A DNA stretch of 64,000 nucleotides from Syntrophomonas sp. GTDB lineage: Bacteria > Bacillota > Syntrophomonadia > Syntrophomonadales > Syntrophomonadaceae. This document shows positions 3 through 63,497 of the stretch, piece after piece (within the stretch, counting starts at the first letter, position 1; every line of letters begins with the position of its first letter). The DNA is taken from the NCBI GenBank assembly GCA_016841245.1, contig JAENZN010000013.1, positions 1 through 64,000 on the forward strand, written 5' to 3'. Both the position numbers and the translations under genes were made by a program. The notes beneath the pieces are model-generated. The model did no database searches. It saw nothing but the letters and a program-made list of their open reading frames with translations, and was not told the origin of the DNA.

Positions 3-479
3 GTGAGAACTACGTTTGCCTTCCTGGCAGTTTTTGCTGCTTTTAGATGTTTTGGAGGAGGGGCGCACCTGAGTTCAGGAAAACGATGCGTATTTGTTAG
101 TACCGTCATGTTTATAGCTTTTGGGTATTTAAGCTGTATCATGATTCCAAAACAGATGTTGATTATCCTGGAGACAATAACCGTATTGTTAGGCCAGTAT
201 ACTATCATGAAGTGGGTGCCGGCAGGTACGGACAAACATCAAATTACTGATAATAGAATTCGATTCATGCAAAAGATAAATATGTCTGTTTCTCTGCTTA
301 TTTACACTATAGTAACCTTTCTATTGATCACGGACGGCAGCTTTACATATGCTTTGACGTTAATTCTGGGAGCAATGGTTAGTTTAGTGCTAATCACTCC
401 CCTGGGCTACAACATTGTTGCAGCAATTGATTATACTTTCGATAGTTTGATAAAAAAGGAGGTGAGAAATAATGTTTAG
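3..479 (+). CDS. agrB: AgrB-like autoinducer-processing membrane protease (5' partial)
   Basis: AgrB cleaves and cyclises the AgrD propeptide at the membrane. The visible part begins with the family's catalytic core: an RCFGGGAH stretch in which His22 is followed seven residues later by Cys29, the same spacing as the catalytic His/Cys pair of staphylococcal AgrB. Four or five hydrophobic segments follow. Full-length members have about 190-210 residues, so roughly 30-50 N-terminal residues lie upstream of the window; the GTG at position 3 is probably internal. The stop overlaps the start of the small agrD-like gene by 8 bases, indicating translational coupling. Any cognate AgrC would be upstream, because none lies downstream. 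Confidence 0.88.
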   Translation: MRTTFAFLAVFAAFRCFGGGAHLSSGKRCVFVSTVMFIAFGYLSCIMIPKQMLIILETITVLLGQYTIMKWVPAGTDKHQITDNRIRFMQKINMSVSLLIYTIVTFLLITDGSFTYALTLILGAMVSLVLITPLGYNIVAAIDYTFDSLIKKEVRNNV

Positions 480-606
480 AAGATTAATGATCCCTTTTGC
501 ATCGGTATTGGCTTTAATGCTGACTTTTATAGGGAACGCCAATGTAAGTTCATTTAAGTTTTTTATACTCTATGAGCCAGATGTACCGAAGGCTTTAGAA
601 AAATAA
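472..606 (+). CDS. agrD: AgrD-like cyclic peptide precursor lacking cysteine
   Basis: This 44-codon gene overlaps the end of agrB by 8 bases and is preceded by a strong ribosome binding site (AAAGGAGGTG). It has the three-part AgrD layout: an N-terminal amphipathic leader (MFRRLMIPFASVLALM...), a short core, and a C-terminal acidic tail YEPDVPKALEK that matches the YEP.VP..L recognition tail of clostridial and Listeria AgrD. The expected ring cysteine is absent; the whole precursor has no Cys. Ser26 and Ser27 are the nearest hydroxyl nucleophiles, so a lactone ring (as in some serine-type staphylococcal peptides) is possible; that is inference. Position and tail make the AgrD assignment firm, the mature structure unknown. 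Confidence 0.85.
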   Translation: MFRRLMIPFASVLALMLTFIGNANVSSFKFFILYEPDVPKALEK

Positions 607-622
607 TCGAGAAGAAGGGTTT

Positions 623-1333
623 ATGGTGTTTGAGGTTTTAATACTTGAAGATGAAGAATATAATCTAGAATTTTTGAAGAAGATCGTAAGTGAAGTACCA
701 GAAGTAACAGCTGTTTACGCAACTTCTAGTGCTGAAGAAGCGATTTCACTTGCTCGAAAACATAAACCGAACCTTGCTTTGCTGGACATAGAATTATCTC
801 CCGGCGACCTAAATGGCTTGACTGTAGCTAAGAGCATATTTAGTAATGACCAGAATTGCCTTATAGTCTTTATAACTGGTTATGCTAAATATGCTTTACA
901 GTCTTTTTCGGTTCATCCGTATGATTATATAGTTAAACCTATAAATAAGGCCAAGCTCAAAACCCTGGTGATGGAAATTGCACAAAAATCAAATAAACAA
1001 AAGAACGCCAGCTCGGATGTTATTACTTTAAAGAGAAAAGGTGAGGTTTTTCATATCAATCAGGAAGATATTATTTTTATTGAAAAGTATGGTAAAGAAG
1101 CCCAAATTCATACTGGTGATGAAATGTTCACTACCTATCAAACTCTTGACGAAATTGAGAATAGTCTGAATAGTTCCTTTTTCAGATCGCACAAATCATA
1201 CTTAATAAATGTAGATAAAGTACAAAAAGTAGGCAAAAATAGTAATAGGTCATACCAGGTGAGTTTTCATTATTATGGGAAAACAGCAATGATGAGCAGG
1301 GAAAAATACAAGCAATATTTATTGATTATCTAA
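623..1333 (+). CDS. LytTR-family response regulator (AgrA-like)
   Basis: A 236-residue regulator: receiver domain at about 1-120 with acidic pocket E9/D10/E11, phosphoacceptor D55 (LALLDIEL) and the conserved lysine in YIVKPINK; LytTR DNA-binding domain at about 135-236. Members bind direct repeats upstream of target promoters. It starts 16 bases after the agrD stop behind GAAGAAGGG, so it is the output arm of this agr locus. No histidine kinase is adjacent downstream; the receptor kinase is either upstream of the window or encoded elsewhere. Confidence 0.88.
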   Translation: MVFEVLILEDEEYNLEFLKKIVSEVPEVTAVYATSSAEEAISLARKHKPNLALLDIELSPGDLNGLTVAKSIFSNDQNCLIVFITGYAKYALQSFSVHPYDYIVKPINKAKLKTLVMEIAQKSNKQKNASSDVITLKRKGEVFHINQEDIIFIEKYGKEAQIHTGDEMFTTYQTLDEIENSLNSSFFRSHKSYLINVDKVQKVGKNSNRSYQVSFHYYGKTAMMSREKYKQYLLII

Positions 1334-2948: not shown

Positions 2949-4136
2949 ATGAAAGGGAAAGGGAACAAATTTTTTGTGATCCTGGTTGCACTGTTGTTGA
3001 TGATCAGTCTTGTTGCTGGTTGTGGCGGCGGCACCAGCGAGGAAAATCCAGCCACTGATGCTGAAAAGATTGCTGTAGGTATTAATGTCGAACTATCCGG
3101 CGGTGTCGCTAGCTATGGAAGCAACGCGAGAGATGGTGCTGTACTGGCCATCGAAGAGATCAACGCAGCCGGTGGTGTGCTGGGCATGCAGCTGGAACCT
3201 ATTGTCAGAGACTGTAAATCAACCGCCGACGAAGCTATGAGCGTAAGTGCTGCTCTGGCCGGAGAAAATATCGTAGCTCAAATCGGACCTCTGACCAGTG
3301 GTGATGTTCAGGGAAGTACCCCGGTTATGATGGAAAATAAGATCCCTCTAATTGCTCCTGCTGCAACTGCAGCCAATGTAACAGTCGATGATAAGACTGG
3401 CGAAACTAAAGCTTATATTTTCCGGGTTTGCTTTATAGACCCATTTCAGGGTACTTTGATGGCCCAATATGCAGCTGACGAGCTGGGTGCACAGAATGCT
3501 GCCATTTATGCGGATACTTCCAGTGATTATGCTAAAGGTCTGGCTGAATATTTTAAAAAGACCTTCGTTGAAAAAGGCGGTACCATTATAGCTGAAGAAG
3601 GTTTTGTCAAAGATGACCGTGATTTCAATGCTACTTTAACCAAGATAAGAAGCAAAAATCCTGATTTCATCTATGTTCCTGGATACTATCAGGAAGTTGC
3701 TCCTCTGATCAAGCAGGCTCGTGAACTGGGAATCACTGCCCCCATCGGTGGAGGCGATGGATGGGATTCTCCTGATATGGTATCAGTTGCCGGCGGAGAC
3801 GCCCTGAACAACGCATTTTTCACTAATCATTACTCTTCCCAGGACACTGACCCCAAAATAGTAGCCTTTGTTGAAGCATTCAAAGCTAAATATGACAAGG
3901 AGCCCGATGCATTTGCAGCCCTGGGATATGATTCCGTACAGCTGCTGGTACAGGGTATCAAAGATGCAAATGCTGCCGATTCGGTTAAGATCGCCGAAGC
4001 TCTGGCCAAAATTACCGACTTCGAGGGAATAACCGGCAAAATGAGCATTGACGAACAACATAATCCGGTAAAAGCTGGAGTAATCATAGAATTCAAGGAT
4101 GGTGAACAGGTAGTTAGGACCAGAATCCAGCCTTAG
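2949..4136 (+). CDS. livK: Branched-chain amino acid ABC transporter, substrate-binding lipoprotein
   Basis: 395 residues. The N-terminus is a lipoprotein signal ending in the lipobox LVAGC (Cys at about 25) followed by a Gly-rich linker, so the protein is anchored outside the membrane. The rest is a type I periplasmic-binding fold of the LivJ/LivK family (KIAVGINVELSGGVASYG, REIGPLT-like block IVAQIGPLTSGD, DTSSDYAKG). It captures leucine, isoleucine, valine or related ligands for LivHMGF. First gene of the cluster, SD AAGAGGAGG. A hairpin between livK and livH probably keeps the binding protein in excess. Exact ligand specificity cannot be read from sequence. Confidence 0.93.
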   Translation: MKGKGNKFFVILVALLLMISLVAGCGGGTSEENPATDAEKIAVGINVELSGGVASYGSNARDGAVLAIEEINAAGGVLGMQLEPIVRDCKSTADEAMSVSAALAGENIVAQIGPLTSGDVQGSTPVMMENKIPLIAPAATAANVTVDDKTGETKAYIFRVCFIDPFQGTLMAQYAADELGAQNAAIYADTSSDYAKGLAEYFKKTFVEKGGTIIAEEGFVKDDRDFNATLTKIRSKNPDFIYVPGYYQEVAPLIKQARELGITAPIGGGDGWDSPDMVSVAGGDALNNAFFTNHYSSQDTDPKIVAFVEAFKAKYDKEPDAFAALGYDSVQLLVQGIKDANAADSVKIAEALAKITDFEGITGKMSIDEQHNPVKAGVIIEFKDGEQVVRTRIQP

Positions 4137-4148
4137 ATATGCAGTTAA

Positions 4149-4178
4149 AAGAAAGAGAGGGTGAGCCCTCTCTTTCTT
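4149..4178 (+). terminator. Intercistronic hairpin between livK and livH
   Basis: Perfect 13-pair stem AAGAAAGAGAGGG / CCCTCTCTTTCTT with TGAG loop. It stands 13 bases after the livK stop and before the livH SD. There is only a weak U run, so it probably acts as a partial terminator or 3' stabiliser that raises livK transcript over livHMGF. Confidence 0.7.
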
Positions 4179-4199
4179 ATTAAGTAGTAGTAGGAGGAA

Positions 4200-5090
4200 G
4201 TGGCCAATTTGATAGAATTCATCCAACAACTCGTCAACGGCTTATCGCTGGGGGCGATTTACGCTCTAATTGCACTGGGATATACGATGGTCTATGGAAT
4301 TATTAAATTAATAAATTTTGCCCATGGTGATGTTATGATGGTAGGTGCTTATGTAGGTTTTTTTTCTATCACCCTTTTTGGTACCAACATCCTGGCAGCT
4401 ATGCTGCTTGCCATGTTATTCTGTGCCATATTCGGTGTTATCATCGAAAAAGTGGCCTACCGTCCACTGCGGAATTCAACCCGTATAGCGGCGCTAATAA
4501 CAGCAATCGGCGTATCCCTGTTCTTAGAATATATAACCATTTTCATCCTGGGCCCAGCCCAGAAAGTTTTTCCCAGCAGTGCCTTTCCGATTACAGAGTA
4601 CCATATCGCGGGTATCTCAATTTTAAATAAGAATATCTTTGTATTTATCTCGGCGGTTGTCTTAATGTTAATCCTCCAATACATTATTAAATGGACTAAG
4701 ACTGGCAAAGCCATGCGTGCAGTATCATTGGATATGGAAGCAGCCGTTTTAATGGGTATCAGCGTTGACAAAACTATATCCATCACTTTCGCTATCGGCT
4801 CTGCACTGGCTGCGGCGGCGGGTGTCATGGTTGGAGTATATTACAATACCATTAATCCCTTAATGGGGATCATCCCGGGTCTTAAAGCATTTGTTGCTGC
4901 CGTACTGGGTGGAATCGGGATCATACCGGGAGCCATGGTAGGAGGTTTCGTAATGGGGCTTCTGGAAACCATGGTCAGCGGCTACGGAAACAGTCTGTAC
5001 CGGGACGCAGTAGCCTTTGGGGTACTCATTTTGATATTGCTGATTAAACCCACCGGATTGTTTGGCAAAAACACCGGCGAAAAAGTGTAG
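4200..5090 (+). CDS. livH: Branched-chain amino acid ABC permease LivH
   Basis: 296 residues, GTG start behind TAGGAGGAAG. A polytopic inner-membrane permease with about 8 hydrophobic helices and the family signature GAIYALIALGYTMVYGI...NFAHGD near the N-terminus. The conserved cytoplasmic loop TGKAMRAVSLDMEAAVLMGI contacts the ATPases. It forms the channel with LivM. Confidence 0.93.
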   Translation: MANLIEFIQQLVNGLSLGAIYALIALGYTMVYGIIKLINFAHGDVMMVGAYVGFFSITLFGTNILAAMLLAMLFCAIFGVIIEKVAYRPLRNSTRIAALITAIGVSLFLEYITIFILGPAQKVFPSSAFPITEYHIAGISILNKNIFVFISAVVLMLILQYIIKWTKTGKAMRAVSLDMEAAVLMGISVDKTISITFAIGSALAAAAGVMVGVYYNTINPLMGIIPGLKAFVAAVLGGIGIIPGAMVGGFVMGLLETMVSGYGNSLYRDAVAFGVLILILLIKPTGLFGKNTGEKV

Positions 5091-60501: not shown

Positions 60502-62190
60502 CTATACTATCTGGTTCATTTCCTCTAATTCCTCTTCCAGAACTCTTTCAAAGGAAGCAACTAACTCCGGATCAAATATAATACCAGTATAATCTTGTAT
60601 TTCTTTCAGGGCCTCACTCGATGATAGATTCCTCCGATAAGGACGGTAGGATGTCATAGCATCATAGCTATCTACTATTCTTATAATTCTAGAGATGACT
60701 GGTATATCATCCCCGGCCAGCCCATCTGGATAACCCGAACCATCGTAATTCTCATGATGGTGACGAATTATAGGTACTATCGGCCTCATTTTGGCAAGCG
60801 GCTTGACCATATCACTTCCCCATATGGGATGCTGTTTGATAACCAACCATTCTTCTTCATTCAGCCTGGATGGTTTGTTTAAAATATCCCGGTCTATCTC
60901 TATCTTGCCTATATCATGCAGGAAGGATGCATAATCAACCCACTTGATCTCTTCTTCACTTAAACCAATTATCTCCGCTACTCTATGGCTATAATAAGTG
61001 ACCCGCTCGGAATGTCCATAAGTATATCTATCTTTAGCATTAATTACCGATACCAGAGTCCGAATAGAATTTAAAATCTCTCTTTCATCATGGGTAATTT
61101 CTATATTATCAAAAACGGAAAAATATAATTCCACATTATGCCGACTCAGGCTTCTCGATTTATATAGGGCCTGTTCAGCATATCCCTGCAATTCTTTGCT
61201 ATTGCTGGCATGCTGGGGATATGAGGCAATACCACAGGATACAGTAACTTTGCCCTCCGGTTGATATTTTTCACCATAGAAATGATAATCATTTATTTTT
61301 CTGATAATGTCTTCAGCGATCTCAACCGCCTCGCTCTGCTCATACCCCTGCAGTACCAGAGCAAACTGCCCTCCTGCATAGCGGGCTGCAAAAGCATTTT
61401 CCAGTTTTAAGCCATGCAGGAATCCAGCAATAATCTGCAAGAGCTTATCTCCCATCAGGTGCCCGAAGCTGTCATTGTAATATTTAAAATAGTCTATATC
61501 CAGCAGTATCAGCACCAGCGATTGCTGATGGTCCGGGTTTTGGAAGTATTCCTGCAATTTATCCTGTAAATAGCGGTAGCTGAATAACCCGGTTAACAAA
61601 TCAGTGTTGGCGAGTGTGATTAAATAACCTCGCTGTTCCTTCTCAGAATCGGCTTGTGAGCCTATAAACCAGCCTACCACAAATAAAATACCCAGAAAAA
61701 TAAAATTGGATTCCACCATACTGTATACCGCGCTGGTATGCCCGAAATATTCAAACAAGAATAAAATCACCGCACAGAGAGCAGCCATTGTAAGCCCGAA
61801 CACCTGTCCGCCTATGGATGCCGCAATAATAACCGGCAGCAGCAGCATAATTTCAGGATAGACGATACTGCTGTCCCGCAGTATATATAGTATTATCAAG
61901 GTCATAAACAGCGGGTACCCTACATAAGATATCTTAAGCCAGTTAAAGCCTTTCCTTTCCACCTGACAATAATAACGACGGTTGTATAGGTTGACTATTA
62001 CAAATAACAGCAAACAAACAGACATAAATAATAGAACTTTATAATTTAACAAAGGAAACATATAAATTGAAAAAAAGTCCTTATTGATTACCAGCGTAAA
62101 CAGCATGATATACATGCACAGCATATGCAGGGTAGTGACATTTTCAAATATATCCCGTTTGCGTTTTTCCTCGTGTTCTAATGCTTTCAC
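60502..62190 (-). CDS. Membrane protein with degenerate GGDEF and HD-GYP domains
   Basis: 562 residues. Five or six membrane helices (to about 190), then a GGDEF domain (about 190-360; DLLTGLFSYRYLQDKL, DIDYFKYYNDSFGHLMGD) in which the active site reads YAGGQFALVL instead of GG(D/E)EF, then a complete HD-GYP domain (about 375-550; YGHSERVTYYS, FLHDIGKIEID, RHHHENYDGSGYPDG). It should be a c-di-GMP phosphodiesterase with an inactive, possibly GTP-sensing, GGDEF domain. It follows the second agr locus on the same strand, after a terminator. Confidence 0.9.
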   Translation of the reverse strand: MKALEHEEKRKRDIFENVTTLHMLCMYIMLFTLVINKDFFSIYMFPLLNYKVLLFMSVCLLLFVIVNLYNRRYYCQVERKGFNWLKISYVGYPLFMTLIILYILRDSSIVYPEIMLLLPVIIAASIGGQVFGLTMAALCAVILFLFEYFGHTSAVYSMVESNFIFLGILFVVGWFIGSQADSEKEQRGYLITLANTDLLTGLFSYRYLQDKLQEYFQNPDHQQSLVLILLDIDYFKYYNDSFGHLMGDKLLQIIAGFLHGLKLENAFAARYAGGQFALVLQGYEQSEAVEIAEDIIRKINDYHFYGEKYQPEGKVTVSCGIASYPQHASNSKELQGYAEQALYKSRSLSRHNVELYFSVFDNIEITHDEREILNSIRTLVSVINAKDRYTYGHSERVTYYSHRVAEIIGLSEEEIKWVDYASFLHDIGKIEIDRDILNKPSRLNEEEWLVIKQHPIWGSDMVKPLAKMRPIVPIIRHHHENYDGSGYPDGLAGDDIPVISRIIRIVDSYDAMTSYRPYRRNLSSSEALKEIQDYTGIIFDPELVASFERVLEEELEEMNQIV

Positions 62191-62225
62191 TTATCATTCA
62201 CCTCGGGTTTTTCTGTTCCTCCGCC

Positions 62226-62255
62226 AATAAGGGGAGAGTCCACTCTCCCCTTATT
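62226..62255 (-). terminator. Terminator after agrD
   Basis: Thirteen-pair stem AATAAGGGGAGAG / CTCTCCCCTTATT with loop TCCA, 9 bases past the agrD stop. It separates the agr operon from the HD-GYP gene. Confidence 0.82.
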
Positions 62256-62263
62256 GCTGAAGA

Positions 62264-62395
62264 TTATTTACGTAGTGATTCTGGAACTTCCGGCTGATAA
62301 TGACAATAAAAACATGCTGAAGCTGATGCAACGTTAGCAATAAAAACAAGAGCAACAACTGCAATTCCCATCATAGAATATAAGACCTTTTTCAT
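62264..62395 (-). CDS. agrD: AgrD-like cyclic autoinducer precursor
   Basis: 43 residues, too short for usual gene calling. Amphipathic leader MKKVLYSMMGIAVVALVFIA, core ASACFYCHY, and tail QPEVPESLRK, the canonical clostridial AgrD C-terminus. C28 in ACFYCHY is the expected thiolactone residue; a second Cys (C31) lies inside the predicted ring. SD AGGAGGTGAAAGAGGA just upstream, 24 bases after agrB. Confidence 0.93.
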   Translation of the reverse strand: MKKVLYSMMGIAVVALVFIANVASASACFYCHYQPEVPESLRK

Positions 62396-62419
62396 TCCTC
62401 TTTCACCTCCTGAAATATG

Positions 62420-63040
62420 TTATTGCTGCCTGTCCAACAGCTGCGAAAGCTTAGCTGCGGTATCAGTTAAGTTGAAACTAACCCATAAAATGGTCAGGGC
62501 ACCGCACATCTGCAGTGTACGGGCATACAACCACATTGATGAGCCTACTTCCAACAACAGCATTACAGCAGCCAATATGCCAATTACCAGGTAAGAATAT
62601 TTTTTCAATCTTCTATGTCTAGCTTCGGATATTATGGGAGCCTGGACTGAATCTACCGGAGCATACCGGCATATCGCATAAATACCCAGCAGAAAAGCCG
62701 CAACAGCTGCAACCCTGGTATATACCACCGGCAAACCAGCCAGTTGAGCTCCCAGCCAGGCCAGGACTGGAAACACGCACATGGTAATCGCTGCACAAAT
62801 CCAGGGACTCCGGGCATGGGTCCCTCCGGCAGTGTGGCGATAAGCGGTGGCTACTAATAAGCAGGCTGCGGTACCTGGCAGAACCCCCAAAAGCCAGCCG
62901 ATCAGCAGGGTTAAAGTCAAATTTAAAATATTAATAAACAGCACTTCCAGGGCATAAGCCAGCTCGTATTCTTTTTCAGCCGGCAGCTGGTTTTGCTGGC
63001 ACAAGTAAAAAGCCAAGCGCCGGTAAAGATTAGGTTCCAT
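62420..63040 (-). CDS. agrB: AgrB-family autoinducer-processing protease
   Basis: 206 residues from ATG 63040 (SD GGAAG), the family's full length. Catalytic His75 and Cys82 (GGTHARSPWIC) lie seven apart as in staphylococcal AgrB; YRHTAGGTHA is the family signature. Five to six hydrophobic helices. It overlaps the upstream membrane gene by 11 bases and is followed directly by agrD. It would process the 62264-62395 peptide. Confidence 0.93.
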   Translation of the reverse strand: MEPNLYRRLAFYLCQQNQLPAEKEYELAYALEVLFINILNLTLTLLIGWLLGVLPGTAACLLVATAYRHTAGGTHARSPWICAAITMCVFPVLAWLGAQLAGLPVVYTRVAAVAAFLLGIYAICRYAPVDSVQAPIISEARHRRLKKYSYLVIGILAAVMLLLEVGSSMWLYARTLQMCGALTILWVSFNLTDTAAKLSQLLDRQQ

Positions 63041-63497
63041 TATCATTCTTCCAATCATATACTGGTCTTAAGAATATCTGCAGCACCACAGCGATAATGT
63101 TCATCAGCACTGCCTGTATATAGCCTTCTAACATCCATAAACTTCTTACTTCACCCACATCCTCAATATGCAGCAGATTCAGCCTAAATAACATCCAGCT
63201 TATTGAATATTCAATGACTCCCAGGACGAGAAAACTGGCAAATACTGCTATGAATGCCCTGGATTTGTCAGCTGTAGTTACGCTGATAATAAATATAAAT
63301 GTCATTATTATACCTGCAACCATGTGTATGCCAAATACAACTGGCAGGTTTCTTATTCCAATCATGACAGCCGCTATAACCGCTGCTGTCAGCGTAGTTT
63401 TTACCCATTTAATCCTGACACGGGAAAATACCAGGGCCAGCGCGATAGATCCCAGGACTTCGATAATACCCTGAACGTAGGAAAGGACTATATCCAT
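63030..63497 (-). CDS. Small polytopic membrane protein resembling an AgrC sensor domain
   Basis: 155 residues in five hydrophobic helices with a short charged C-terminus (VYDWKNDNGT). Size, topology and position upstream of agrB match the N-terminal sensor half of AgrC-type kinases, but no kinase domain follows: it stops and agrB begins, overlapping. It could be a detached receptor, an immunity or transport factor, or a truncated AgrC. First gene of the operon. Confidence 0.65.
   Translation of the reverse strand: MDIVLSYVQGIIEVLGSIALALVFSRVRIKWVKTTLTAAVIAAVMIGIRNLPVVFGIHMVAGIIMTFIFIISVTTADKSRAFIAVFASFLVLGVIEYSISWMLFRLNLLHIEDVGEVRSLWMLEGYIQAVLMNIIAVVLQIFLRPVYDWKNDNGT

Follow-up and report, generated by a model that had tools for sequence, protein, structure and literature searches.

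Reviews describe the autoinducing peptides (AIPs) of agr quorum-sensing systems as thiolactones with a few serine lactones, C. difficile Agr2 and E. faecalis GBAP being examples with Ser (PMC12312760). Cleavage of AgrD by AgrB is thought to run via a cysteine thioester, which is attacked by the ring cysteine of the precursor (PMC10482373; PMC4979651), and the leader is removed in S. aureus by MroQ (PMC10885120). In the serine-lactone AIPs, found in S. intermedius/pseudintermedius as well as in the two systems above, another nucleophile replaces the ring cysteine in the same position, and the resulting ester hydrolyses. Amide-closed products of AgrD also exist in nature, namely the homodetic AIPs of Listeria and Ruminiclostridium, but these arise when a thiolactone on an N-terminal Cys undergoes a spontaneous S-to-N shift, and they involve no lysine side chain. 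Lactam AIPs are on record as synthetic analogues only, whose potency is greatly lowered in S. aureus and which are well active in Listeria (PMC11297923); no natural lysine-lactam or lactam AgrD product was found in the literature searched, most subscription journals lying outside it. Microviridins, which are RiPPs made by ATP-grasp enzymes, are likewise ribosomal peptides with lysine side-chain lactams, but their synthesis is ATP-dependent, joins Lys to a Glu side chain and employs no peptidase (PMC4979651).

Here we describe an agr locus with lysine at the ring position. It lies at the start of the window, by which we mean the whole stretch of 64,000 nucleotides that was analysed, from Syntrophomonas sp. 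contig JAENZN010000013.1. The window starts at the contig edge within agrB, and the 5' part of this gene is missing. The features of the locus are as follows.

3..479, + strand: agrB, C-terminal 158 aa, peptidase/cyclase (PF04647, 65.9 bits, cut-off 23)
472..606, + strand: agrD, 44-aa Cys-less AIP precursor (TIGR04223, 32.3 bits, cut-off 19)
556..558, + strand: AAG codon of Lys29, which aligns with the Cys/Ser ring column and precedes Tyr34 by five residues; predicted ring-closing nucleophile
556..570, + strand: predicted five-residue macrocycle KFFIL, from the tail alignment with canonical AgrDs
571-573, + strand: Tyr34 codon, before which cleavage is predicted from the same tail alignment
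571..603, + strand: AgrD C-terminal recognition tail YEPDVPKALEK, with an E-P-x-x-P core conserved across the family
623..1333, + strand: LytTR-family response regulator, AgrA-like partner (Response_reg 59.4 bits, LytTR 75.8 bits)

The product of agrD, MFRRLMIPFASVLALMLTFIGNANVSSFKFFILYEPDVPKALEK, scores above the curated cut-off of TIGR04223 (quorum_AgrD) and below the gathering cut-off of the narrower staphylococcal AgrD family PF05931 (17.4 against 22.7 bits). The reading frame overlaps agrB by 8 nt at its ATG, which is preceded by AAGGAGGTG, by its sequence a strong ribosome-binding site. An earlier note on this DNA had recognised an AgrD overlapping agrB, with the characteristic tail and without any cysteine, and all of this is borne out by the translation and the family score. 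As in staphylococcal systems, the precursor has an amphipathic leader, a core and an acidic tail with a conserved V-P, and AgrB carries the catalytic His/Cys dyad (His codon at 66-68 and Cys codon at 87-89, within GGGAHLSSGKRC). A signal-peptidase-like site, GNA/N, is visible in the precursor.

In canonical AgrDs the ring cysteine stands five residues before the conserved tail, as in the S. aureus sequence CDFIM/DEFEVPKEL; the window counterpart is KFFIL/YEPDVPKAL, in which residue -5 is Lys29. The earlier note had expected an unusual ring size, but with Lys29 aligned to the ring cysteine the predicted ring has the standard five residues and the bond alone would be unusual, an amide in place of the staphylococcal thioester. 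For members of TIGR04223 one expects a neighbouring agrB that has the catalytic His and Cys, as is the case here, and Cys or Ser as the ring residue, where this protein has Lys29. The label "cyclic lactone/thiolactone" is therefore unfit for it, although it is an AgrD homologue. Serine-lactone AIPs have Ser in the ring column, and the residue found there is Lys in 10/10 distinct members of the clade described below.

The possibility of a sequencing error, raised in the earlier note, is ruled out, since Cys-less copies occur both in a paralogue and in an independent assembly. The same genome encodes a second Cys-less agrD (contig C53, 474-608), a diverged paralogue with five leader substitutions and an identical NVSSFKFFILYEPDVPKALEK, and the sister genome G001 (JAENZE, Syntrophomonas sp. 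BL5_bin.17) encodes three Cys-less copies. One of the three sister loci (L038, 2090..2224) is without a response regulator after agrD. When the window (601..1200) is compared with the C53 locus (L131), identity is 99-100% in the response-regulator segment and agrB/agrD are about 4-18% different, as if gene conversion or recombination had homogenised the regulator. The window locus and the similar locus of the same genome break at the same agrB base, as expected for a repeat. A third Lys-type locus of this genome, on contig C24 (L127, about 4010..4660), is decayed: a kinase remnant is fused to agrB, the agrB frame is broken and agrD is cut down to the tail FFLLYESDVPEALEK. We considered it as a Ser-type copy and rejected this reading, as a deletion joins agrB to the agrD tail; having decayed in this way, C24 is uninformative on the ring residue.

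Further AgrD sequences were collected with an alignment (A2) built from Cys-, Ser- and Lys-type members, in which the ring column (29) was set to X against bias. The searches covered 63 genomes of the class and 398 genomes of the phylum, and sequences with E<1e-4 were tabulated. Among 155 distinct AgrDs the masked column holds Cys in 110, Ser in 33, Lys in 10 and Thr in 2, these being counts over mutually related sequences in which the family was sampled and the phylum hits were read in part. All relatives found within the family have Cys, Ser or Lys at this position, and the sole other residue is a Tyr, with a weaker score, in a stop-broken frame. As judged from these alignments, the ring column is limited to side chains able to attack an acyl-enzyme. 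The earlier note had placed serine lactones in a few staphylococci, which is too narrow given the number of Ser-type sequences here and the occurrence of Ser in Agr2 and GBAP. Outside the family, the AgrDs of L209 and L218 have Thr in the ring column (ATTIAAYQPEVP and ATGFWSYQPEVP), predicting threonine lactones. No independent origin of Lys outside the family was seen among the hits read from the 398 phylum genomes and one further order, and the same search method returned no relatives from viral contigs.

Lys-type agrD genes are spread over seven genera within one family (the window genus, G034, G028, G017, G005, G026 and G008), the window genus contributing two genomes and five closely similar copies. 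The cores around the invariant Lys are VSSFKFFIL, LSSFKFFVL, ISATKVFIL, MNAFKLFLL, ANSFKWFIL, AHSYKWFLL, VGTSKLFIL and VNSFKWLIL, and its codon alternates between AAA and AAG among relatives while Lys itself is constant. The G008 gene (L116, 4009..4140) is an orphan agrD without agrB, and its tail starts with Cys (CEPEIP), not Tyr. AgrBs adjoining Lys-type AgrDs form a single clade (support 100/92) nested among Cys and Ser types, with a single change of state to Lys on the AgrB tree and about 4.5 substitutions per site within the clade in total (sum of branch lengths). On this tree the Lys type has one origin, followed by retention; since it is one clade, the conservation within it carries the weight of a single evolutionary origin only. 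The columns of the AgrB His/Cys dyad show no variation within the Lys clade and 98% conservation elsewhere, and three AgrB positions are specific to the clade (Val62, Ala80 and Ala196 in L010 numbering). A structural argument from AlphaFold prediction of Lys-clade AgrB (five sequences) was dropped, as the model (pLDDT 62, pTM 0.51) is too poor for a pocket or for placing these three residues; a sequence search of the PDB returned no solved AgrB relative.

We propose that the locus is an agr-type quorum-sensing module in which the AgrD ring would be closed by Lys29 to give a lactam AIP, a reading to which we assign a probability of roughly 70%. AgrB would cut AgrD between Leu33 and Tyr34 and keep its C-terminus as a thioester on the catalytic Cys; the epsilon-amine of Lys29 would then attack this thioester and free the side-chain-to-tail macrolactam c(KFFIL), with 19 ring atoms against the usual 16. 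The amide would also distinguish the product from the Ser-lactone AIPs, whose ring is three atoms smaller. The lactam would bear an N-terminal exotail (for example VSSF or NVSSF) and, after export, would be sensed by a split AgrC-like receptor made up of a membrane subunit of about 164 aa and a GHKL kinase, which would signal to the LytTR regulator. Amine attack on the AgrB thioester would be chemically favourable, and it has a parallel in class C sortases, the pilin polymerases, in which a Lys epsilon-amine attacks a Cys acyl-thioester to give an isopeptide bond. These enzymes differ from AgrB in having an unrelated fold and in joining large proteins in an intermolecular reaction. Two counterpoints are that the lactam route must involve a deprotonated Lys amine in the AgrB site, and that Lys could be kept so that the receptor or AgrB recognises a peptide that is uncyclised or closed by Ser. 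The comparative case for a lysine lactam is strong, and it is from this case that we infer the bond. The earlier note had named a Lys29 lactam last among its options; as the positional equivalent of the ring cysteine, Lys29 now appears the favoured nucleophile. With slightly less confidence, we regard the AgrBs of the clade as probable side-chain-to-tail macrolactam synthases of peptidase type that make natural Lys-lactam AIPs, in a family that would use thiol, hydroxyl or amine according to lineage.

An unlikely alternative is that the signal is linear, AgrB or thioester hydrolysis freeing an uncyclised peptide such as VSSFKFFIL in which Lys serves recognition by the receptor or by AgrB. The residue does give a very hydrophobic core a positive charge that a receptor could read, and the macrocycle is itself a prediction. 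This would leave unexplained, however, why Lys stands in a column that otherwise holds Cys, Ser or Thr only, the catalytic dyad of AgrB is unchanged, and AIPs in linear form reportedly lack activity in S. aureus (PMC12312760). Quite improbable, in our view, is closure through Ser27 or Ser26 to a lactone of seven or eight residues, which the earlier note had preferred. Both positions are variable in the Lys clade, where several members have Ala, Asn, Thr, Gly or His instead, and the core NMNAFKLFLL of G028 is without Ser, Thr or Cys. Serine lactones are predicted widely in the family (33/155), and a nine-residue Ser ring exists in E. faecalis GBAP (PMC12312760), but in Cys-less relatives that fall outside this clade the Ser or Thr occupies the ring column itself and not a site 2-3 residues upstream. 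The comparison with related AgrDs thus yielded Cys-less relatives and conservation of Lys, not of the upstream serines; from the earlier note, the AgrD identity, the absence of Cys and the Lys29 option stand, and the lactone of seven to eight residues finds no support.

Closure of a homodetic ring, in which the exotail would be lost first and the backbone closed by the alpha-amine instead of the Lys epsilon-amine, is very improbable. Its precedent in Listeria and Ruminiclostridium arises by S-to-N acyl shift (PMC11297923), a route that first passes through a side-chain (thio)ester, and plain attack by an alpha-amine needs no nucleophilic side chain, so that the restriction of the column to Cys, Ser, Thr and Lys would be unexplained. 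We give almost no credence to the idea that the Lys-type genes are non-functional or decaying copies. The decayed C24 locus in the same genome and the orphan agrD of G008 point in this direction, but two genomes between them carry five closely similar copies, there is conservation through synonymous change, and another four genera (G034, G028, G005 and G026) have sets of agrB, agrD and regulator together with the kinase.

The lysine variant of the agr peptide system appears to be new, and a natural Lys-lactam AIP seems not to have been reported previously. If the lactam reading is correct, it would extend a well-studied signal class by a member that is closed by an amide and resists hydrolysis, and would indicate that the nucleophile choice of AgrB is evolvable. 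For comparison, within 22 h at pH 7 hydrolysis consumed 36% and rearrangement 48% of a lactone analogue of the Listeria AIP (PMC11297923); one may speculate that a stable signal would suit slow-growing syntrophs. An ATP-free enzyme for Lys-to-C-terminus macrolactams would also be useful in peptide engineering. The AgrB of S. aureus is reported to be unable to process even Ser-containing AgrD (PMC10482373), and the Lys-, Ser- and Cys-type AgrB/AgrD pairs found here are closely related and share one gene order. The basis of selectivity is therefore testable with natural pairs of three types.

Intact relatives of the locus encode, in order, a membrane protein of about 164 aa, a GHKL/SPOB_a kinase of about 290 aa, agrB, agrD and a LytTR regulator, so that, unlike in staphylococcal agr, the sensor kinase is split. 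The kinase lies directly upstream of agrB in L037-L039, L112, L113 and L115; in the window genome the assembly ends at the contig edge and lacks the part upstream of agrB, and the LytTR regulator is within the window. The Cys-type relative L128 has the identical operon order, and the layout is hence not tied to Lys. Two GTGAANNGNCC-like repeats, spaced by exactly 21 bp, precede the operon in L037-L039, L112 and L128, a pair that L113 and L115 are without. This spacing is the one expected for LytTR sites, and the repeats are possible regulator sites whose position suggests autoregulation of the operon, the pattern having been derived from the same sequences and the shuffle counts being post hoc.

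The window contains a second agr system, of Cys type, at 60502..63497 on the - strand:

62264..62395, - strand: agrD, Cys-type, ring CFYCH
62420..63058, - strand: agrB of the Cys-type system
63030..63497, - strand: 155-aa membrane protein beside the Cys-type agrB
60502..62190, - strand: GGDEF + HD-domain protein, immediately downstream of the Cys-type agr

The presence of the GGDEF/HD protein next to this system suggests a link between AIP sensing and cyclic-di-GMP.
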